This document shows, one piece after another, positions 20,326 to 31,715 of a stretch of 64,000 nt of DNA. Made by a program: the position numbers and the translations under genes. How positions within the stretch are numbered: the first letter of the stretch is position 1; the number at the start of each line of letters is the position of its first letter. Location: contig SVMX01000006.1 of the NCBI GenBank assembly GCA_015067175.1, forward strand, positions 1 to 64,000, in the 5' to 3' direction. Below the pieces are notes generated by a model that saw only the letters and a list, made by a program, of their open reading frames with translations, searched no databases and had not been told where the DNA came from. The DNA is from Oscillospiraceae bacterium (GTDB lineage Bacteria; Bacillota; Clostridia; Oscillospirales; Ruminococcaceae).

Positions 20326-20358
20326 CCATATAAAAAATCAATCATTTTGGAGGTAATT

Positions 20359-20772
20359 ATGCAGATACTTATTCACAGTAATGTTGATGACAAGGATATA
20401 GTAAATACCATGATTTTGTCTAAGTATAAGGGTAAGTGGCTGTACTGCAAACGCAGAGGCTGCCTTACCTATGAGTTCCCTCAGGGCAAGCGCGAGAGGG
20501 GCGAGGATATTGAGGAAACAGCACACCGTGTATTATCCGAGTGTACAGGCGCGAAAAAGTATGAGCTTATCCCTATCTGCACCTATTCTATAACTGATAA
20601 CGGTGTGACAGAATACGGCAAGCTTTATTTCGGCGGCGTTGTTGATCTTGGAAGCAAGCCTTCCGGTGAGATCGAGCGTATCTATTATCTTGACGCGCAC
20701 CCCGAAAAGCTTACATATCCCGAGGTGAATTCTATTCTTGTTGCTGAGGCAAAGCGCAAGGGAATAGAGTAA
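20359..20772 (+). CDS. NUDIX-fold protein with degenerate catalytic box
   Basis: A 137-residue NUDIX-like protein; GGAGG at 20349-20353 selects the ATG at 20359. It aligns without gaps to the next gene product across most of its length. The NUDIX box (GX5EX7REUXEEXGU) keeps Gly43, Glu49, Arg57, Glu61 and Gly64, but the first catalytic Glu is Val58 and the second of the EE pair is Cys62. It has therefore probably lost normal metal-dependent hydrolysis and may bind a nucleotide or act as a sensor or partner of its paralogue. Its start lies 33 bases after nadC. Confidence 0.85.
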   Translation: MQILIHSNVDDKDIVNTMILSKYKGKWLYCKRRGCLTYEFPQGKRERGEDIEETAHRVLSECTGAKKYELIPICTYSITDNGVTEYGKLYFGGVVDLGSKPSGEIERIYYLDAHPEKLTYPEVNSILVAEAKRKGIE

Positions 20773-20824
20773 TAATATATCGTAATAAGCGCCGCTGTTG
20801 TGCGCTGTTGATGGAGTTGTTATT

Positions 20825-21241
20825 ATGAAGATTGAATTTCACGAGGACGTAAATGACGATCTGCTGAAATATGCCGTTGTCATTGCAAAATATCAGGGAA
20901 AGTGGGCTTACTGCAAGCACAGAGAACGCCTTACCTATGAGATACCGGGCGGTCACCGTGAAAAGGGTGAAAGTATCGAGGAAGCGGCAAGGCGTGAGCT
21001 TTTTGAGGAAACAGGCGCGAAAAAGTACGAGCTTATTCCTATATGCGTTTACTCCGTGACCGATAAGGGCGAGACCTCTTACGGAATGCTGTACTATGCC
21101 GATCTTATCGACATCGGCGTAAAGCCAACCAATGAGATAGAAAAGGTTTATTATCTCGATGACCACCCCGAAAAACAGACTTATCCCGAGATACAGCCGA
21201 AGCTTATTGCCGAAGCAAAGCGCAGAGGCATTGTATCCTGA
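20825..21241 (+). CDS. NUDIX hydrolase
   Basis: A 138-residue NUDIX hydrolase with an intact box: Gly43, Glu49, Arg57-Glu58 and Glu61-Glu62-x-Gly64. It shares KGKW/QGKW, CK-R--LTYE, GAKKYELIPIC and the HPEK-TYPE C-terminal part with the preceding protein, which indicates a tandem duplication. Most such proteins hydrolyse a nucleoside diphosphate linked to another moiety; the substrate is unknown. TGGAG lies upstream of the ATG at 20825. Confidence 0.9.
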   Translation: MKIEFHEDVNDDLLKYAVVIAKYQGKWAYCKHRERLTYEIPGGHREKGESIEEAARRELFEETGAKKYELIPICVYSVTDKGETSYGMLYYADLIDIGVKPTNEIEKVYYLDDHPEKQTYPEIQPKLIAEAKRRGIVS

Positions 21242-22404: not shown

Positions 22405-22434
22405 CGCCCCGAAGTTGTCTTCGGGGCGTTGCTT
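22405..22434 (+). terminator. Terminator between convergent genes
   Basis: A perfect 10-bp GC-rich stem (22405-22414 with 22419-22428) and a TTGT loop are followed by TTGCTTT. It serves the SGNH gene and may also serve the DUF4956 gene on the other strand. Confidence 0.8.
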
Positions 22435-22449
22435 TATGTAAGAATAATA

Positions 22450-23124
22450 TCAAAGCTCGTCGTGAACAGCGGGGAGAACGCCACAGCTTATCGTGAGGTT
22501 TCCGTTGCGGCAACGTATCTTGTCAAGCATCTCCTTTTCCTTGGAGGGGTCTTTCAGAGTTACAAGGTAATGAAGATTGAACATTGTGCCCATTCTCACT
22601 GTCTTTACTCTGTTAAGCTTGCAGCGTGTGGTGTACTCGCTGAAAATATCGTTGAACAGCTCGCTGTAGTCGAGATCCTCGGGAACAAGTATGCGAAGCA
22701 GTCTTGTGCGCTTTGTTGTTTCAGAGGGAATGATCTTTTCTGCGATGAATACCACTGCAGCGATCGCAATTGTAAACAGCGCGCCATAGCCGATATAGCC
22801 CATACCTGCCGCGATACCCGAAGCCATAGCAAGGAACAGAATACATATATCACGCGATGTACCTGGAACCGATCTGAAACGAACAAGGCTGAACGCGCCT
22901 GCAACTGCAACGCCTGTGCCAATGCTGCCGTTTACCAGCATTATAACGGTCTGCACGACCGCTGGCATGATAAGCGTTGTGATGGTCATGTATTTTGAGG
23001 GTCTGTCAGCGCCAAGTCGATAAACAACGGCGATAACAGCGCCGCATACAAGGGCGGCAGCCATTGCTATAGCGCAGCCTGCGCCCGTGGTAAGGTCGAT
23101 CTGATTAAAAATAAGCTCTGTCAT
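22450..23124 (-). CDS. DUF4956 membrane protein
   Basis: A 224-residue membrane protein with about four transmembrane segments in the first 125 residues and a soluble C-terminal half. The signature FSLVRFRSVPGTSRDI (about 79-94) is characteristic of DUF4956. The function is unknown. It is the third gene of a minus-strand unit, VTC - CotH - DUF4956, starting 20 bases after the CotH stop. The family recurs beside VTC and CotH proteins, which suggests a shared surface or phosphate-polymer role (inference). Confidence 0.88.
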   Translation of the reverse strand: MTELIFNQIDLTTGAGCAIAMAAALVCGAVIAVVYRLGADRPSKYMTITTLIMPAVVQTVIMLVNGSIGTGVAVAGAFSLVRFRSVPGTSRDICILFLAMASGIAAGMGYIGYGALFTIAIAAVVFIAEKIIPSETTKRTRLLRILVPEDLDYSELFNDIFSEYTTRCKLNRVKTVRMGTMFNLHYLVTLKDPSKEKEMLDKIRCRNGNLTISCGVLPAVHDEL

Positions 23125-23144
23125 ATTAAGTTGCCTTTCAATTG

Positions 23145-25169
23145 TTATTTGTAAATTCTATTGCAGAAGTCGATCATCTTTTTGATGTTCTTTTCTCGTT
23201 TGTTTATAAAACCGCGTATGCAAGCTGCTGTTGCATAACCGCCGTTTATTGCATCGTCAGCGTTGCCTGTGTTTTCATACCGCGCAAAGAATTGCTCGAA
23301 CAGGGGAGAATAAGTATCCTCAAAATACTGCAGCCTTTCAAGTGCAGCAGTTTTTTCAAAGCAGCCCTCTGAAAGCCCTGTCAGCTTTTCGCAGAACTCC
23401 GTGCGGAAGCCTTCGTTTGTCATGAGGTATGCAAAGCAAAGCACCGCAGGGTTTTCGGTGTCCATATCAAGCAGCCCGTTAGGCGTGTAATTTGCATTTT
23501 TGAGGGTGTTATTGTAGGCGTCGTTCTGGCCGCATACACCGCCGAACTCCATATCATAGAACAGGAAGCGCCATCTGCCGTCCGCGTATTCGTTTGTCGG
23601 GTCAGCGGAGGTCGTTTTCCACATTGACCAGTTCTTGCCCGGCCAGTCCCATTTATTGTCTATCCAGCATTGCACCGCGAAGTAGTCCATAACAGACTCT
23701 GGGTCAACAAGCTTTATAAACTCATCATAATCTTCCTGTGAACTGAGGTCTTTGTGTGACTTGAAGAAATCAAACAGCTCATTGAAGTGGTAGCTCTCAT
23801 CGCTCACACCGTCGGGAAGATCGCCGTCGTCAAGCTTATAGCCAAGCTCCAGCGATTCCGCGTCGCCTTTATAGATAACAACGTCGCTTTTGTCAACGCC
23901 GTAGCGGTCCTCCATGTGGTCGTTGGTGTAGTCCTCTTGTAAAATGTACAGTCCCCAGTATTCGCCGTTTAGATAAACAACGCAAGGGCGTGACTTCTGA
24001 GTGCCGCAGTCAAGCTCCTCAACGAGCGATTGCCAGTATGTGTCGTTAAATTTTGAGGTGAACGCGCAATTGCCGCCGTTTCTTAACACAAGCGTATCAA
24101 ACTTGTCTATGACTTTGCCTTCAGCGTTGGTGTAGTCCTCGCCAAAGAATGCATACTTGAAGTTTTTGTTACCGTGCTGTGTACGAGCGTAAAGGCGCAG
24201 ACCTTTTTGAACGTCAGAGCGCGAGTAGTTGCCTTGTATCCTTATACCGCAGCCTTGCGTAAGCACATTTTCTGCGGAGTCCTCACTGAACTCGAAAAGA
24301 GTGATTGCCGCCTCGCGTTCCCATTTCTTGCCCTTTTGCTTGTAGTTAGCGTCAAGCGAACGTGCGGTCTCGCCGTCGCGAAGCCTTTCATCGGCAAGGT
24401 AGCTTTGAAGTGCTTCGTCAAATATGTCGCCCTTAACATAAATACCTTTTTCGCTGTCGAAAAGGTCGTCATAATTCATTGAAATGCTCATCACCGCGAG
24501 CGTTGTGCCCGAAGCCTCGCAGTATTCCGAAAGTCCCTGTATATGCTGCTCTGCGTCACCTACAAAATATGTCGCGAAGCTCTCGCCGCCAAAGGTGCCA
24601 TCTTCTTTTTTTACAGCCGCTCTTATGACAGTGCATTTGTCTACTGCGTCATCAGCAGGCGCGGAAATTTCACAGGTAAATCCGTCACGCGTCTTGTTCA
24701 CCTTATTGAAGCTTCCTGCAAAAAGCAGAGGATCAACAGCCGAAACAACGTTTTTGTCGCCGCTTCTGTCGGTTATTTCAATAGTACCGTCAAACAGCTT
24801 TGCGCTGTCGCTCACAGCAGGGTCGCTGCCGTCGGTGGTGTAGTAGATATCGCCTGCTTCAAGCGGAGCAATGCTAAGCGAGAATGCTTCTTTATATATT
24901 CCGCTCTCATGTGAAAATGAAACAGACGCGGGGAGAGCGTCCTGCGGCTCTATCTCTTCCTCAGGCTCATCGGTGGTCGCGGAAGTTGCAGAAGTAGCGT
25001 CAGTTCCTGCTGTGCTGTCAGTTGAGGAAGCGGTTGAAGCCGAGGTCGACGCGCTTGTTTCAGCACTTGTCGAGGAGCTGTCAGAGCTATCTCCGTTACA
25101 ACCCGCAAAAAGGGAAGTTATTAAGCTGCAAATAACTATGGCAGCTGCTATCTTATGTCTTAACTTCAT
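23145..25169 (-). CDS. CotH-kinase-domain lipoprotein 1
   Basis: A 674-residue exported lipoprotein: signal peptide with lipobox LFAGC (Cys24), then a Ser/Thr/Ala-rich linker (about 28-68). A chitobiase-C-terminal-like beta domain follows (about 78-135, YYTTDGSDP motif), then a CotH kinase domain (about 210-640) with GIRIQGNYSRSD, VLRNGGN, YLNGEYWGLYILQE and the acidic motif YDMEFGG (538-544). CotH proteins are atypical kinases; in Bacillus CotH phosphorylates spore coat proteins. The start overlaps the VTC gene by 17 bases. The acidic motif here is DME rather than DFD. Confidence 0.88.
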   Translation of the reverse strand: MKLRHKIAAAIVICSLITSLFAGCNGDSSDSSSTSAETSASTSASTASSTDSTAGTDATSATSATTDEPEEEIEPQDALPASVSFSHESGIYKEAFSLSIAPLEAGDIYYTTDGSDPAVSDSAKLFDGTIEITDRSGDKNVVSAVDPLLFAGSFNKVNKTRDGFTCEISAPADDAVDKCTVIRAAVKKEDGTFGGESFATYFVGDAEQHIQGLSEYCEASGTTLAVMSISMNYDDLFDSEKGIYVKGDIFDEALQSYLADERLRDGETARSLDANYKQKGKKWEREAAITLFEFSEDSAENVLTQGCGIRIQGNYSRSDVQKGLRLYARTQHGNKNFKYAFFGEDYTNAEGKVIDKFDTLVLRNGGNCAFTSKFNDTYWQSLVEELDCGTQKSRPCVVYLNGEYWGLYILQEDYTNDHMEDRYGVDKSDVVIYKGDAESLELGYKLDDGDLPDGVSDESYHFNELFDFFKSHKDLSSQEDYDEFIKLVDPESVMDYFAVQCWIDNKWDWPGKNWSMWKTTSADPTNEYADGRWRFLFYDMEFGGVCGQNDAYNNTLKNANYTPNGLLDMDTENPAVLCFAYLMTNEGFRTEFCEKLTGLSEGCFEKTAALERLQYFEDTYSPLFEQFFARYENTGNADDAINGGYATAACIRGFINKREKNIKKMIDFCNRIYK

Positions 25170-25914
25170 CGCGCTCCTCCTTTATCTTAGCCCATCGAGC
25201 CTTATAAATATTGCCGTATTTCGAAAATGAAACAGGGCGTATTTTAAGCTCGGACAATATATGAGCAAATCCTATGGGTATCGCACCCGAGGATTTTATC
25301 TCCATCAGCCTGTAGTCATCGGTACCTGTGCTCAGCAGAGAAGTGTCGTTGTCATGCGAAAGCGTGATATCCTCCCAACGGCTGCGTATATTTCTGTCAA
25401 AGGTCACACGCAGGTCGGGATATTGCGGAGAGAAGTAAGCCTCTCTGTCATAGGCGAGATATATCTTTTGCTTCGGCTTGTACTTCTGCATAAGAAAATC
25501 TATCTCATTGAATATCTGATTTGCATGATATCCCTCGATGCTCTGCGGCTTTATTCCGTTATTTATGTAGTTTTCCGCTTCGCTGTGCGGTATCGTTATG
25601 CGTCTTTTGTAGACAATGCCGTCAAACTTTTTCTTTATCTCGAAAAATACGTTATCCTGTCCCGAAACATTACCATAGCTTCTTACACGGAGCTTTTCTT
25701 TATAGATAGGCTTGTCGAGCGAGGTCTCGATAAAATAAAAGTCATCGGTGTCAAGATACAGATTGCAAATTGAATATTCTCCGTACTTGTCCTGCTGTAG
25801 AAGCGAGCCTACCGCTTCTAGGAGCGCTGTTTTTTGCTCGTGTGTAAGCAGATATTTAGTTTCAAATCGCTTAAAGCTTTGTATGTAACCTATTTCAGCT
25901 CGCCTGCCTTTCAA
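25153..25914 (-). CDS. VTC-domain protein, putative polyphosphate polymerase
   Basis: A triphosphate-tunnel (VTC/CYTH-like) protein. The basic tunnel residues are in place: FKRFETKYLL, YKEKLRVRSYG, FFEIKKKFDGIVYKRR, DRNIRSRW, RLMEIKSSG and a final FSKYG. In yeast Vtc4 this fold makes polyphosphate from ATP; several bacterial homologues are annotated as polyphosphate polymerases. No membrane segment is seen. The frame stays open to a TTG at 26010, but that extension is very AT-rich and unlike the family. I tentatively use the TTG at 25914; the start is uncertain. It is first in the unit with CotH and DUF4956. Confidence 0.85.
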   Translation of the reverse strand: MKGRRAEIGYIQSFKRFETKYLLTHEQKTALLEAVGSLLQQDKYGEYSICNLYLDTDDFYFIETSLDKPIYKEKLRVRSYGNVSGQDNVFFEIKKKFDGIVYKRRITIPHSEAENYINNGIKPQSIEGYHANQIFNEIDFLMQKYKPKQKIYLAYDREAYFSPQYPDLRVTFDRNIRSRWEDITLSHDNDTSLLSTGTDDYRLMEIKSSGAIPIGFAHILSELKIRPVSFSKYGNIYKARWAKIKEERDEVKT

Positions 25915-26011
25915 TACATTAACCAATTTATTATAACATTTTTCTATGTAAAATGCTAGTAGTATTTGAATTTTTCTAAAAATTTTCATTTCAATATCAT
26001 ACTTGAACAAA

Positions 26012-26043
26012 AAATGAAAAATTAGTTCGCCGATTTTTCATTT
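26012..26043. promoter_or_regulatory. Inverted repeat between divergent VTC and CotH genes (candidate operator)
   Basis: An 11-bp perfect inverted repeat (26012-26022 with 26033-26043, half-site ATTTTTCATTT) with a 10-base spacer lies just upstream of the promoter of the plus-strand CotH gene. It has no T-tract on either side that would make it a terminator, so a protein-binding site is the simpler reading. Confidence 0.45.
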
Positions 26044-26048
26044 AATAC

Positions 26049-26077
26049 TTGCATTTCTGCTCAAATAATGATATTAT
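26049..26077 (+). promoter_or_regulatory. Sigma-A promoter for CotH lipoprotein 2
   Basis: TTGCAT (26049-26054) and TATTAT (26072-26077) have a 17-base spacer and lie 30 bases before the ATG at 26107. Confidence 0.65.
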
Positions 26078-26106
26078 TATATAAAATCTTATGGAAAGGA
26101 TTTGCC

Positions 26107-27825
26107 ATGAAAAAGGAGCTTATCTCGTTTTTTTGTATAGCATTATTACTTATAAATTCAGTGGGCTGTGCCAACACCTCATCAGAAAGCAGCTCGGTTC
26201 CCGTGCAGTCTGAAAGCTCCGGTACATCTGCTCCCGAGGAGAGCACTGCGGCAACGTCTGATACGGAGAGCTCAGCTCCTGATGAAACACAAAAGAGCGA
26301 AGCCACTACTTCTGCACCGCAGACTACTGCAAGTTCTACAGCCGAAACAACTGCTGCAACTACGGCTTTGACCTCAGCTGCGACATCTTCAACTACTGAG
26401 ACTACCACTGCGTCAACAACGCAGACAACAGCCTCAAGCGCTCAGACCACTGTAACGACTACAAAAGCAACTACTACTGCTAAGCCTGTTGAAATACCTC
26501 CCTCAGAGGACCTTTCCGATCTTATGCTGCAATACTATGAAGAAACAGCAGAGCGAGAAGAGGATTTTGCTGATATAGCAAAGAAAAAGACCATGCCCGC
26601 AGTGTATATCACTACCTACGACAACGAGCGCATTTTGTCTAAGGATTACTACGTAGACGCTGTGATAGATGTGGTGAACTGCGATGAAGAGTACAGGCTG
26701 ACGGCTGAGGGCGGCGTTAAGGTGCGCGGAAACTCTACCGCAAACGACAGCGAAAAGCCGTATCGCATCAAGTTTGACAAAAAGCAGGGAATGCTGGGCC
26801 TGCATGATGATATGAAGTTTAAAAGCTGGGTGCTCCTGCGCTCGCAGTGGAATTTGGTTCCCGACTGCATGGGCTTTGCGCTTGCCGAAACTATATTTGA
26901 CGGTGAATATTACAGCTCTGATTATACTTATGTAAACGTGTATATAAACGGCAGAGGCGTCGGACTTTACCTGCTATGTGAGCAAAATCAAGCTGTCGAG
27001 GGCAGGGTAGAGGTCTATGAGCCTAAGGAAGACGAGCTTCAGACCGATATCGGCTATTTCCTCGAAATGGACAACTACGCAAATGAAGACGAAGCGCCGT
27101 TTTTCACGCTTGATTATGACGGCATTGAATTTACCGATTATGTTGGAACGACAAAGGCTTTCGTTCCCGATGATTTCTCGATCAAGAGCGACATCACCTG
27201 TGATGAACAGCGTCAGTTCATTGCAAAATATCTTGACGGTGTTTTCCACATTATGTATGAGGCGGTTGAAAATGACAAGCCGATGATGTTTGACAAGGAT
27301 TATAATGTTTTATCAGCCGAGGGCGTTTATCCCACAGCAAAGGAAGCTGTGGAGGCAGTTATTGACCTTGATTCGATGGTAAACACCATGATCTTGCAGG
27401 AGCTTGTTCACAACTACGACGTAGGTGCGGGAAGCTTCTTTATGGCGGTTGACTTTTCCGAGGAGAGCAAGTATGAGCGGCTTACATTCCTCGCTCCGTG
27501 GGATTTCAACTGGGCATACAGCGAGGAAACTCACGGCAGATACTACGCGGGAGCTTTTCAGAAGCCTGTGCATGATATGTATGAGCGCTCTAACGTTTGG
27601 CTCACAGTTATCATGAAGGCTGATTGGTTCAGGGATATGCTTAAAGAAAAGTGGAAGGAGCTTGACAACGGCACTGCGCTTGCCAAGACTGCCGCAAATG
27701 TTTTTAAGATAGCTCAGTCGCTTGAAAATGACCTTGGCGATGAAAGCTGGCGCATTGACTCAGCAAAGGGCGTTGTTTCCTTTGTAAGAGGCAGGATACA
27801 GTGGCTCAAAGGTGAGTGGGAATAA
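26107..27825 (+). CDS. CotH-kinase-domain lipoprotein 2
   Basis: A 572-residue lipoprotein: signal peptide with lipobox INSVGC (Cys21), then an exceptionally Ser/Thr-rich linker (about 22-132, long TTTTA-type runs), then a CotH domain. Motifs are VKVRGNSTAND, KPYRIKFDKKQGMLGL, NVYINGRGVGLYLLCEQ and APWDFNWAYS (WDFN at 465-468). The motif usually reads WDFD, so the second acidic residue is Asn here, which may weaken catalysis. GGAAAGGA precedes the ATG at 26107; the upstream ATG at 26068 overlaps the promoter. It diverges from the VTC unit. Confidence 0.88.
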   Translation: MKKELISFFCIALLLINSVGCANTSSESSSVPVQSESSGTSAPEESTAATSDTESSAPDETQKSEATTSAPQTTASSTAETTAATTALTSAATSSTTETTTASTTQTTASSAQTTVTTTKATTTAKPVEIPPSEDLSDLMLQYYEETAEREEDFADIAKKKTMPAVYITTYDNERILSKDYYVDAVIDVVNCDEEYRLTAEGGVKVRGNSTANDSEKPYRIKFDKKQGMLGLHDDMKFKSWVLLRSQWNLVPDCMGFALAETIFDGEYYSSDYTYVNVYINGRGVGLYLLCEQNQAVEGRVEVYEPKEDELQTDIGYFLEMDNYANEDEAPFFTLDYDGIEFTDYVGTTKAFVPDDFSIKSDITCDEQRQFIAKYLDGVFHIMYEAVENDKPMMFDKDYNVLSAEGVYPTAKEAVEAVIDLDSMVNTMILQELVHNYDVGAGSFFMAVDFSEESKYERLTFLAPWDFNWAYSEETHGRYYAGAFQKPVHDMYERSNVWLTVIMKADWFRDMLKEKWKELDNGTALAKTAANVFKIAQSLENDLGDESWRIDSAKGVVSFVRGRIQWLKGEWE

Positions 27826-27830
27826 CATGA

Positions 27831-27860
27831 AAGCTCCGAGAAATATCTCGGAGCTTTTTA
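27831..27860. terminator. Bidirectional terminator between two CotH genes
   Basis: A 10-bp perfect stem (27831-27840 with 27847-27856) with a 6-base loop is followed by TTTTTATG on the plus strand. It separates the convergent CotH 2 and CotH 3 genes. Confidence 0.85.
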
Positions 27861-27862
27861 TG

Positions 27863-29602
27863 TCATATATTTTCGTCGATCCAATCGGCTCTGTCGTTGA
27901 GGAAATCCTTGAGATACTGAAGCTGAAGCTCATAGGTATTTGCTTTGTAGTTGCTCCATGAGGAGTATCCAGCCTTGATATCCCATATATCCCAGACTTG
28001 GAAATTCTCAACCTGTGAGGGATAAATCTTTTCGCCGTAGTAGTCAATGGTATCCATAGCGGTCTGTAAAAGCTCGTCGCGAACCTCAAACCATCTTTCT
28101 CTGAGCCGCGCTCTGAAGCTTTCGTTTTTCATGAGGTAGTTTCCCCACGACGCCTGAACATAAGCGTCCTCGTCATAAGAGCCGATGATGGTCCAGCTGT
28201 CATAGTGAGAATTATCCACAACAAGGTTTCCGAAAGCAAGGTCAAAGTCCCATATCGGGCCCATTTTCAGCAGTCCTCCGACATCTTTTGTAAGAAAACA
28301 GCTTCTTCTGAAAGCACTGTCGGTGTTGTTTGTAAGCTCTTGAATGATTATCCAGTCGCAAAAGCTGTCGATGTCGATGTATTCCTCAAGCCCCTCCTTT
28401 GCAACTATGGCATCATCAGCGCCTTGCACCCATGACATTATGTGTTCCTTTTGCTCGTCGGTGATGTTTTTTGGACTTGGGTAGTTGAAAGTGATAAAAT
28501 TCAGCAGGTCGGAATCGGCGTGGAAATAATCAACGCCTTTAGTAGTGTAGTCGCTGTCAGCGCCGCCGACCTCAAGAAGATATCCGCATTCAGCAGATTC
28601 CTCGGATTGCTCGGTGATATTCACACGGTTTTTGCCTGTTTCCATGTGTTCTCCGATGGAATAAACACCTTGATACTCGCCGTTTATAAACAGATCGACG
28701 GGGTACTGCGTGGGCACCCAATCAAAATTGTCCATCACCTTGCCCATTGAGTAGGCAAGCGTACATCTCATCAGTGATTTGTCAGCGTAGTTTGCAAGCA
28801 GTATCCAATCTTTGTTTGCAGGCAGACCGAGCACCTCAGCTTTTTCGTCAAGCTTTATCTTGTAGGGCTTTTTGTCCCACTTCCATGTTGAGTTGCCTCT
28901 TCCTCTGATAGTGCCGCTTGCCATAGAAAGTCCGTGGCTGTATTCGGGGGCATTGGTACAGTCGATGGAAATAGTCATTTCGGTGGTCTTGTTGCGCTTT
29001 ATATCGTCTACGTCCTTGTCGTCAGCAAGCGTTATATTGATTATGGGAAGCAACCCATGCGTCTGCTCGGTAATGACTGTGTATTCCTTGGTCTGACCGT
29101 TAATGTCCTCAACAATAAAGGTCTGTTCATCGTTAAGATCAAGCTTTGCAGTGGTTTCGGTGTCTCCGAAGATACAAGTTCCGTTCTCGGCTTCCGCGGT
29201 GACGCTAGCAAACTTCAGCTCATAGGGCGAAGCGTAATTCGCGTTATATGTGGCATCGCAATAAACAGTGCTGTCCTCTTCGTCGATCTTATATTTGAGC
29301 TTTGTGCCGTTGGGAGTTGTAGCGACAAACGAAAGAAGCTCACCGCAGTATTCTTCGATAACAGGCGGCTCCTCGGTTTCGGGCTCTGTCGTTGTGGTAG
29401 TTGCTGAAGTTGTCGCAGACGTTGTGGTCGTCACAGTTGTGGAAACGCTTGTTGAAGCAGAGGTCTGCGTGGTCGATGCCGTTGTTGCCTCGGGCTGTGA
29501 AACCGTATCAATACTTGATGTGCTGTTATTGCCGCCACAGGCGCTGAAAGCTAAAAGCGCTGTAACTAAGGCTGTGATAGCTGTTATAGTCCTTTTTGTC
29601 AT
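27863..29602 (-). CDS. CotH-kinase-domain lipoprotein 3
   Basis: A 579-residue lipoprotein with lipobox AFSAC (Cys22) and a Ser/Thr-rich linker (about 24-75). A small beta domain (about 80-165) precedes the CotH domain (about 180-560). This copy looks the most canonical: IRGRGNSTWKWDKKPYKIKLD, WILLANYADKSLMR, DLFINGEYQGVYSIGEH and PIWDFDLAFGN (WDFD at 451-454). It is monocistronic, with its own consensus promoter. It probably acts as a surface-attached kinase; the acceptor protein is unknown. Its own linker, or those of its paralogues, are possible acceptors (inference). Confidence 0.9.
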   Translation of the reverse strand: MTKRTITAITALVTALLAFSACGGNNSTSSIDTVSQPEATTASTTQTSASTSVSTTVTTTTSATTSATTTTTEPETEEPPVIEEYCGELLSFVATTPNGTKLKYKIDEEDSTVYCDATYNANYASPYELKFASVTAEAENGTCIFGDTETTAKLDLNDEQTFIVEDINGQTKEYTVITEQTHGLLPIINITLADDKDVDDIKRNKTTEMTISIDCTNAPEYSHGLSMASGTIRGRGNSTWKWDKKPYKIKLDEKAEVLGLPANKDWILLANYADKSLMRCTLAYSMGKVMDNFDWVPTQYPVDLFINGEYQGVYSIGEHMETGKNRVNITEQSEESAECGYLLEVGGADSDYTTKGVDYFHADSDLLNFITFNYPSPKNITDEQKEHIMSWVQGADDAIVAKEGLEEYIDIDSFCDWIIIQELTNNTDSAFRRSCFLTKDVGGLLKMGPIWDFDLAFGNLVVDNSHYDSWTIIGSYDEDAYVQASWGNYLMKNESFRARLRERWFEVRDELLQTAMDTIDYYGEKIYPSQVENFQVWDIWDIKAGYSSWSNYKANTYELQLQYLKDFLNDRADWIDENI

Positions 29603-31326: not shown

Positions 31327-31384
31327 GTTATTTCCTCCTTGATATAATAGGCAAATATGTGCAGCATTCACTGCTTATTATTTA

Positions 31385-31413
31385 ATTATACACTCGAATT
31401 TCAGTAATAGCAA
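31385..31413 (-). promoter_or_regulatory. Promoter of the solute-binding protein gene
   Basis: On the minus strand, TTGCTA (31408-31413) and TATAAT (31385-31390) have a 17-base spacer. Its -35 box touches the -35 box of the divergent promoter. Confidence 0.75.
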
Positions 31414-31442
31414 TTGACAATATTCCCGATTTATAGTATAAT
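31414..31442 (+). promoter_or_regulatory. Consensus promoter toward the araC-type gene
   Basis: A perfect TTGACA (31414-31419), a 17-base spacer and a perfect TATAAT (31437-31442). It starts a leader of about 265 bases before the regulator ATG at 31716. Confidence 0.8.
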
Positions 31443-31715
31443 ATTCTCAGAGGAAGCGATGTTTTAAAACCTCATGGTGAAGCTTCGACTAAAAAAAGTA
31501 ATTTGATAATTGTATTTTTATCTCATAATGTAACGGTTTACTTGATTTTTTGCGTAAACGTTATAAATGTTTTAACAATGCTGTTTATTGGTTTTATTAG
31601 TTGCTTTGAGATGAAAATATATTCCCGCACTCTTGCATGATGTTTCCTAAAATATATGCATTTGGTGTATGGTATTATCTTCCCGATTTAAGTAATTAGG
31701 CAGGTTATTTACTTT
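31443..31715 (+). other. Long AT-rich leader upstream of the AraC-type regulator
   Basis: About 270 bases without a gene. Near its start, AGAGGAAGCG precedes a two-codon ORF (ATG TTT TAA at about 31460). An imperfect inverted repeat, TAACGGTTTAC (31531-31541) with GTAAACGTTA (31554-31563), has the AACGTT core seen in LacI-family and CcpA-type operators. I see no further gene, terminator or recognised riboswitch. Confidence 0.4.

Follow-up and report, generated by a model that had tools for sequence, protein, structure and literature searches.

The window analysed here comprises 64,000 nucleotides of an Oscillospiraceae bacterium (assembly GCA_015067175.1, contig SVMX01000006.1, positions 1 to 64,000) and contains a locus in which the genes of a VTC protein, a CotH kinase-like protein and a DUF4956 membrane protein follow each other on the minus strand. 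The VTC gene (25153–26010) and the DUF4956 gene (22450–23124) matched their Pfam profiles over the curated cut-off, with E values of 8.7e-40 and 2.3e-15, respectively. The gene between them (23145–25169), hereafter CotH-674, matched CotH at 1.6e-30, again over the curated cut-off, and additionally Fn3_assoc/CHB_HEX. The VTC and CotH-674 genes overlap by 17 nucleotides (nt), a strong AGGAGG-like ribosome site precedes the CotH ATG, and 20 nt separate CotH-674 from DUF4956. A terminator-like stem-loop found by consensus scan is located directly after DUF4956 (22405–22428, minus strand); a reading on the other strand is possible for a GDSL gene.

Two further CotH genes lie beside this group. CotH-585 (26068–27825, plus strand; Pfam CotH 1.2e-19) is a divergent neighbour that codes for an exported protein. 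CotH-579 (27863–29602, minus strand; 7.8e-52) converges with it, and a terminator-like hairpin from the consensus scan (27830–27857, minus strand) separates the two. CotH-579 has a near-consensus promoter-like site (29669–29641, minus strand; 11 of 12) and, on its other side, a second terminator-like hairpin (29782–29758, minus strand), both being consensus matches. In all, the consensus scan yielded 21 terminator-like structures versus 9.7 expected by shuffling, and 20 promoter-like sites versus 15.1 expected. The relative G006 carries homologues of CotH-585 and CotH-579 at C7:193971-201300, and the VTC gene on this contig is about 130 kb away.

The overlap, spacing and terminator-like structure around CotH-674, together with the opposite strand of CotH-585 and the signals of CotH-579, speak for a unit of VTC-CotH-DUF4956, so the other two CotH genes were regarded as neighbours. 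The three genes (26010–22450, minus strand) have the layout of one operon; CotH-579 is probably a separate transcript and CotH-585 probably lies outside the operon. A single five-gene unit was rejected on the strand of CotH-585 and the signals of CotH-579, both genes being unlinked to VTC in G006. The preliminary description of this locus had VTC, CotH and DUF4956 overlap or abut as one unit, which agrees with the shared strand, the overlap and the short gap; its module of three CotH genes is not supported, given the points above.

An Rfam search yielded tRNA only, and NCBIfam gave nothing for the five proteins of the locus beyond one weak low-complexity match on CotH-585. Elsewhere in the window, the interval between a solute-binding protein gene and an AraC-type gene (31377–31467) holds a perfect sigma-70-type consensus on the plus strand (31414–31442), which adjoins and overlaps minus-strand promoter-like sites. 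At 20347–21241, two neighbouring genes code for similar proteins, 141 and 147 amino acids (aa) long, which resemble Nudix proteins by eye.

Encoded proteins

By its longest reading, from a TTG start, the VTC protein has 285 aa with the domain starting at residue 47; the true start is probably nearer to the domain. A profile of 20 VTC relatives matched yeast Vtc4 (3g3q, E 2.7e-19), and 22 columns of this 20-sequence alignment are invariant. Residues K52, R108, R110, K126, K135, R189 and R201 align with Vtc4 K200, R264, R266, K281, K294, R361 and R373, respectively, the latter numbers being counted along the alignment on the full-length chain 8i6v_E. These seven basic columns are constant in every sequence covering them (86–88 of 88), and basic as well as acidic columns are constant across the 88 VTC sequences. 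E237 and K264 lie beyond the alignment and are assumed to be the counterparts of Vtc4 E426 and K458; these and the aligned yeast residues have catalytic roles. The protein has the VTC/TTM domain, the basic tunnel residues and, if the assumed match holds, the metal-binding Glu of a Vtc4-type polymerase. An R264A/R266A/E426N complex was used in a study of yeast VTC (PMC9911596). Because the active-site residues are conserved, the window protein is predicted to be active as a cytosolic polyphosphate polymerase. The intact-looking basic tunnel noted earlier is borne out by the invariant columns and the constant Vtc4-equivalent residues. A single-sequence PDB search with the window VTC gave no match, and the Pfam scan found no SPX domain in it.

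The DUF4956 protein (224 aa) has approximately four hydrophobic segments and an ACT-like C-terminal part, which weakly resembles the RelA ACT domain (E 0.19). R82-F-R84, G76 and G103 are invariant, with R82, R84, G76 and G103 present in 87/87 sequences. MgtC matches were obtained for 17 of 26 relatives at E values up to 10, with 1.8e-5 for the best, but none was obtained for the protein of the window. Based on its near-constant pairing with VTC, the invariant Arg pair and the analogy to yeast VTC, we infer that DUF4956 is the usual membrane partner of VTC and couples or exports its product. The suggestion that it forms the membrane link is plausible for this conserved partner.

CotH-674 (674 aa) consists of a signal with an LFAGC lipobox, a Ser/Thr/Ala linker, the Fn3_assoc/CHB_HEX region and a CotH domain (residues 309–660); it keeps E412, N505, D508 and D539. 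All three window CotH proteins retain the N, D, D, E and G residues of the family and have a hydrophobic, export-like N-terminus, in line with their earlier placement outside the membrane. The lipobox pattern fits CotH-674 and CotH-579 (579 aa), and the NSVGC of CotH-585 (585 aa) is atypical. Of the three exported lipoproteins described previously, export is predicted for all, while lipoprotein status is clear for two and likely for one. CotH-674 is predicted to be an extracytoplasmic kinase-like lipoprotein with most catalytic residues intact and Cys368 deviating.

A domain scan of 63 CotH proteins, 58 of them from trio loci (see below), found LTD in 7, Fn3_assoc in 7, dockerin in 4 and LysM in 1. 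The idea that exported and cytosolic CotH differ in their active sites was considered and rejected, since the main catalytic columns agree between 5 cytosolic rows and 131 other rows of the alignment; this agreement therefore gives no hint on the phosphate donor of CotH. A single-sequence PDB search with CotH-579 returned three chance-like matches only, and a plasmid search with CotH-674 one distant match only. At one trio locus (L053:7996-9887, genome G066) the CotH frame is split in two.

Distribution of the gene families

The genus sample comprised 43 genomes, source genome included. VTC and DUF4956 were each present in 41 of them, and 57 of 59 VTC loci have a DUF4956 gene on the same strand within 2.5 kb. 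The class sample comprised 195 genomes besides the source genome. Here, VTC was present in 100 genomes and DUF4956 in 97, all of which have VTC; only DUF4956 matches over the cut-off were counted (98 of the 100 genomes with any match). Same-strand VTC-DUF4956 pairs were found at 117 of 126 class VTC loci.

At least 52 of these 117 pairs, from 44 genomes, form a trio with a same-strand CotH gene at most 4 kb away; the CotH matches of the class are incomplete and trio counts are lower bounds. The order is VTC-DUF4956-CotH in 36, CotH-VTC-DUF4956 in 10 and DUF4956-VTC-CotH in 1, and a further five CotH-VTC-DUF4956 trios adjoin PelG, two of them with a second CotH. The order of the window, VTC-CotH-DUF4956, is absent from the 52 listed. 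PelG lies within 15 kb of the five trios mentioned and of none of the remaining 47, and 44 of the 52 are in genomes without a PelG match over the cut-off. Trio loci were fetched for all class trios except G139:C1 (51 of 52) and for 7 of the genus, 58 in total; in these, the gaps between members have a median of 15 nt, with 106 of 119 being at most 50 nt. Outside the class, where 288 genomes of the phylum were sampled after removal of 11 marked as nearer kin, a CotH gene lies on the same strand no more than 4 kb away at 31 of 50 VTC loci. We conclude that the trio is a functional association, neither an accident nor specific to spores or Pel.

Among 125 of the 202 neighbour proteins of the 58 loci, scanned with Pfam nearest first, two-component regulators were commonest (Response_reg 16, HisKA 11), and a universal fourth partner was not found among them. 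In nine loci with the order VTC-DUF4956-CotH (L059, L062, L065, L067, L069, L075, L077, L082 and L097), in which CotH has about 470–500 aa, a protein of about 717–766 aa is encoded directly beyond CotH. The proteins of L065, L069, L082 and L097 were scanned: Pfam matched none of three and gave for the fourth a weak glucanosyltransferase-like match below the cut-off. At L052:4458-7619, a CotH with two LTD domains, Fn3-like and dockerin domains directly precedes VTC-DUF4956; judged by domain set and position, cellulosomal-type CotH therefore occurs in the same operon type. The source genome has a second VTC-DUF4956 pair (L036:7268-8729, contig 14) with no CotH beside it. Beside it, the opposite strand codes for two large GGDEF-EAL proteins (1051 and 984 aa), one gene apart.

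The occurrence of CotH follows that of VTC. In the class, CotH was found in 73/100 genomes with VTC versus 6/95 others (Fisher p 2e-23, kinship ignored), so that 73 of 79 CotH genomes have VTC. The co-occurrence of the families, which the preliminary description had left to be counted, is thus non-random. Outside the class the values are 35/41 versus 5/247 (p 2e-33, kinship ignored), with VTC in 35 of 40 CotH genomes. There, one or more exported CotH are present in 35 genomes, of which all but G303 (34) have VTC; of the 4 genomes with only signal-less CotH, 1 has VTC (p 0.0017, kinship ignored). The signal-less CotH of these four genomes, a small group from three families, have 352–370 aa; the VTC-bearing genome is G298, with VTC and CotH on different contigs. 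A fifth short signal-less CotH occurs in G372, a VTC genome that also holds an exported, VTC-linked CotH. A weak CotH match of G393 below the cut-off was dropped, and inspection of genomes with several CotH covered some of the copies.

A hydrophobic export test was positive for 124 of 137 CotH N-termini, which include a few repeats because some loci were fetched twice (e.g. L053 and L239). The controls were negative throughout, namely VTC (0/96, the window VTC being left out for its unsure start) and CotH residues 101–175 (0/137). The 13 test-negative N-termini belong to the five short signal-less proteins, five frames that are split, truncated or interrupted by a stop (with one gene counted twice), L107 and two near-threshold cases that look like signals by eye.

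The closest relatives of CotH-674 (best 80 of 144 kept) stem from Ruminococcus and other clostridia, with some fetched flanks being short. Eight of the 80 have VTC and DUF4956 in the flank. L113 has the same order as the window, L118 and L121 and, more loosely, L141 and L168 have VTC-DUF4956-CotH, L133 and L134 have CotH-VTC-DUF4956, and L114 has VTC-CotH with DUF4956 inverted. In the CotH tree, 6 changes are required to explain the linked state, and starred branches force at least 5 of them. The VTC-DUF4956 tree groups the pair of the window with those of L113, L114, L118 and L040 in one clade (support 100), which is sister to 27 genus pairs without adjacent CotH; the five PelG-linked pairs are in a different deep clade, far from the pair of the window. 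Both trees are quick ones with support from the Shimodaira-Hasegawa-like approximate likelihood ratio test only, and the VTC-DUF4956 tree is flagged for long branches meeting. The only class loci in the latter are trios, therefore label counts there are no measure of linkage.

Proposed function and alternative explanations

We tentatively favour a reading in which VTC-DUF4956 supports a phosphorylation by CotH outside the cytoplasm, all activities being predicted from sequence. In its favour are the recurrence of the pairs and tight trios, the varied orders in which window-type CotH stand beside VTC-DUF4956, the strong co-occurrence of exported CotH with VTC, the basic path and pore residues of yeast VTC (PMC9911596) and the question of the ATP supply of spore CotH (PMC7821199). 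VTC would polymerise the phosphate of ATP into polyphosphate in the cytosol. DUF4956, with its approximately four helices, remote MgtC likeness and ACT-like tail, would couple or export the polymer, and the co-transcribed CotH lipoprotein could phosphorylate surface proteins or glycans outside the membrane. VTC-DUF4956 would support this reaction; the simplest way would be to provide phosphoryl groups in a place that lacks ATP. That exported CotH are polyphosphate-dependent surface kinases or polyphosphate transferases, fed via VTC and DUF4956, is a bolder claim which we consider unlikely. If true, it would answer where the phosphate comes from without ATP outside and would explain why signal-less CotH are mostly without VTC. 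The rarity of exported CotH without VTC is a hint at the phosphate source of these proteins, and two questions, what donates phosphate to extracytoplasmic CotH and what bacterial VTC-DUF4956 does, merge into one that is testable. A proposal of such a mechanism was not found in the available text of the open-access literature searched.

Several observations weigh against the phosphorylation reading. CotH lies within 6 kb of only 8 of the 59 genus VTC loci, and 65 of the 117 class pairs have no CotH nearby among the matches listed; the VTC-DUF4956 pair therefore has other uses. For 72 of the best 80 relatives of CotH-674, the fetched flanks, some of them short, contain no VTC-DUF4956; the relatives in Ruminococcus albus 8 and Ruminococcus bicirculans have no VTC there. 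Exported CotH occur without VTC in the assemblies of G303, G060 and G151; G060 and G151 are the two inspected among the six class genomes with CotH and no VTC, which further comprise G045, G068, G107 and G187. The association of CotH with VTC may partly be due to kinship. At alignment position 274, an Asp is present in 68 of 78 CotH, where CotH-674 has Cys368 and CotH-585 has Gln260. Bacillus subtilis CotH uses ATP in vitro (PMC7821199). In a study of Streptococcus intermedius, whose accessory genes are SIR_1594-1591, all four accessory deletions still aggregated. Aggregation reportedly decreased upon deletion of SIR_1592 and SIR_1594 (CotH), these two deletions changed Pel in opposite directions, and no decrease is reported there for SIR_1593 (VTC) (PMC12345266). 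The lack of a reported aggregation loss for the VTC deletion speaks against a strict pathway. SIR_1592 is inferred to be DUF4956 by combining two papers.

It is also possible, if somewhat doubtful, that VTC-DUF4956 is a homeostasis and signalling pair for phosphate or polyphosphate, with an MgtC-like protein and an ACT sensor controlling an envelope or exopolysaccharide programme. CotH would then be a parallel output that makes no use of the product. The MgtC matches among DUF4956 relatives, the two-component regulators as commonest trio neighbours, the altered Pel levels of the S. intermedius mutants (PMC12345266) and the second pair of the source genome, which lacks CotH and adjoins two GGDEF-EAL proteins, are consistent with such a role. 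Against this, the trios are tight in varied order, rather than sharing one inherited layout, and exported CotH are seldom without VTC.

With lower probability, the polyphosphate exported by the pair is itself the surface polymer, and the proteins that bind it are phosphorylated or anchored by CotH, with the scaffold- and wall-binding modules serving as anchors. The LTD, Fn3_assoc, dockerin and LysM domains counted among the 63 CotH would suit this explanation, as would the polyphosphorylation of Ser-rich CotB repeats by B. subtilis CotH (PMC7821199); on the other hand, a narrow search of the open-access literature found no surface polyphosphate of these organisms.

A module for spore coat phosphorylation, as proposed in the preliminary description, is very improbable. 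B. subtilis CotH is a spore coat kinase (PMC7821199), and Spo0A was matched in 162 of 196 class genomes including the source genome, which has one match. However, Spo0A has no match in 10/44 trio genomes versus 24/151 others (p 0.37; G199, G213, G234 and G236 were counted as lacking it, being absent from the match list). The window CotH are exported, unlike a signal-less spore coat CotH, whereas the short CotH that have no signal tend to be without VTC. Streptococci, which form no spores, have the trio as well. On the Spo0A counts and the export signals, the spore module was rejected.

Equally improbable is a neutral or chance adjacency of the trio: the scarcity of CotH at genus VTC loci and the unlinked CotH-585 and CotH-579 of G006 would fit it, but the class and phylum counts and the recurrence of linked window-type pairs in separate places of the trees argue otherwise, and chance is excluded for VTC-DUF4956 by the genus loci, while it likely accounts for the placing of the flanking CotH-585 and CotH-579.

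Taken together, the real unit, the extracytoplasmic CotH, DUF4956 as partner and the non-random association remain of the earlier interpretation; the spore role and the three-CotH module do not.

Comparison with known systems

Yeast VTC combines the Vtc4 polymerase with a transmembrane channel of Vtc1/3/4; a continuous basic path leads from the polymerase to the pore, and Arg/Lys residues of the pore are needed for vacuolar polyphosphate (PMC9911596). The window is similar in having a polymerase domain with matching active-site residues and, as a protein of its own, a conserved membrane partner in which Arg is invariant. It differs in that SPX was not found, the DUF4956 profile has no match to a VTC chain up to E 10, and a channel is putative here.

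B. subtilis CotH shares the CotH kinase domain with the window proteins, and its catalytic D228 and D251 are the probable counterparts of D508 and D539 of CotH-674, judged only by spacing and conservation. How CotH on spores obtains its ATP has been called an unanswered question (PMC7821199). CotH-674 differs from it as an exported lipoprotein with an Fn3-like region that is associated with VTC. In the control genome of B. subtilis, CotH is present and neither VTC nor DUF4956 has a match.

Clostridium perfringens NELoc-2 is described with the order VTC, 'tubulin', resolvase, VTC, 'tubulin' and CotH (PMC2879425). By description only, it resembles the window in having VTC beside membrane proteins of about 225 aa and CotH, and it differs by duplicated pairs with a resolvase between them. 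Cellulosomal CotH bear dockerin, which Pfam matched in none of the window CotH; one of the four dockerin proteins in the domain scan is that of L052.

The closest published parallel in gene content is the accessory set of Gram-positive pelDEA(DA)FG operons, which consists of CotH, a poly-phosphate polymerase, DUF4956 and DUF4832 (PMC7112168). The same three families are contiguous there and CotH is secreted, as in the window. By contrast, the window has the order VTC-CotH-DUF4956, its pair belongs to a different deep clade from the five PelG-linked pairs, and DUF4832 was found in none of eight window proteins scanned with Pfam. PelG (PF16933) was not matched in the source genome, which is 83.8% complete, and no match exceeded the cut-off in the 43 genus genomes, three of which have weaker matches, PelF and PelD not having been searched; on this PelG result, with these same limits, a Pel accessory identity was rejected for the source genome. 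The authors of the 2025 study on S. intermedius report that they did not encounter this arrangement beyond the Pel locus (PMC12345266). Our class census goes against this statement: the families of the trio were published before as Pel accessory genes, and what is new is that the trio is common outside Pel in class genomes.

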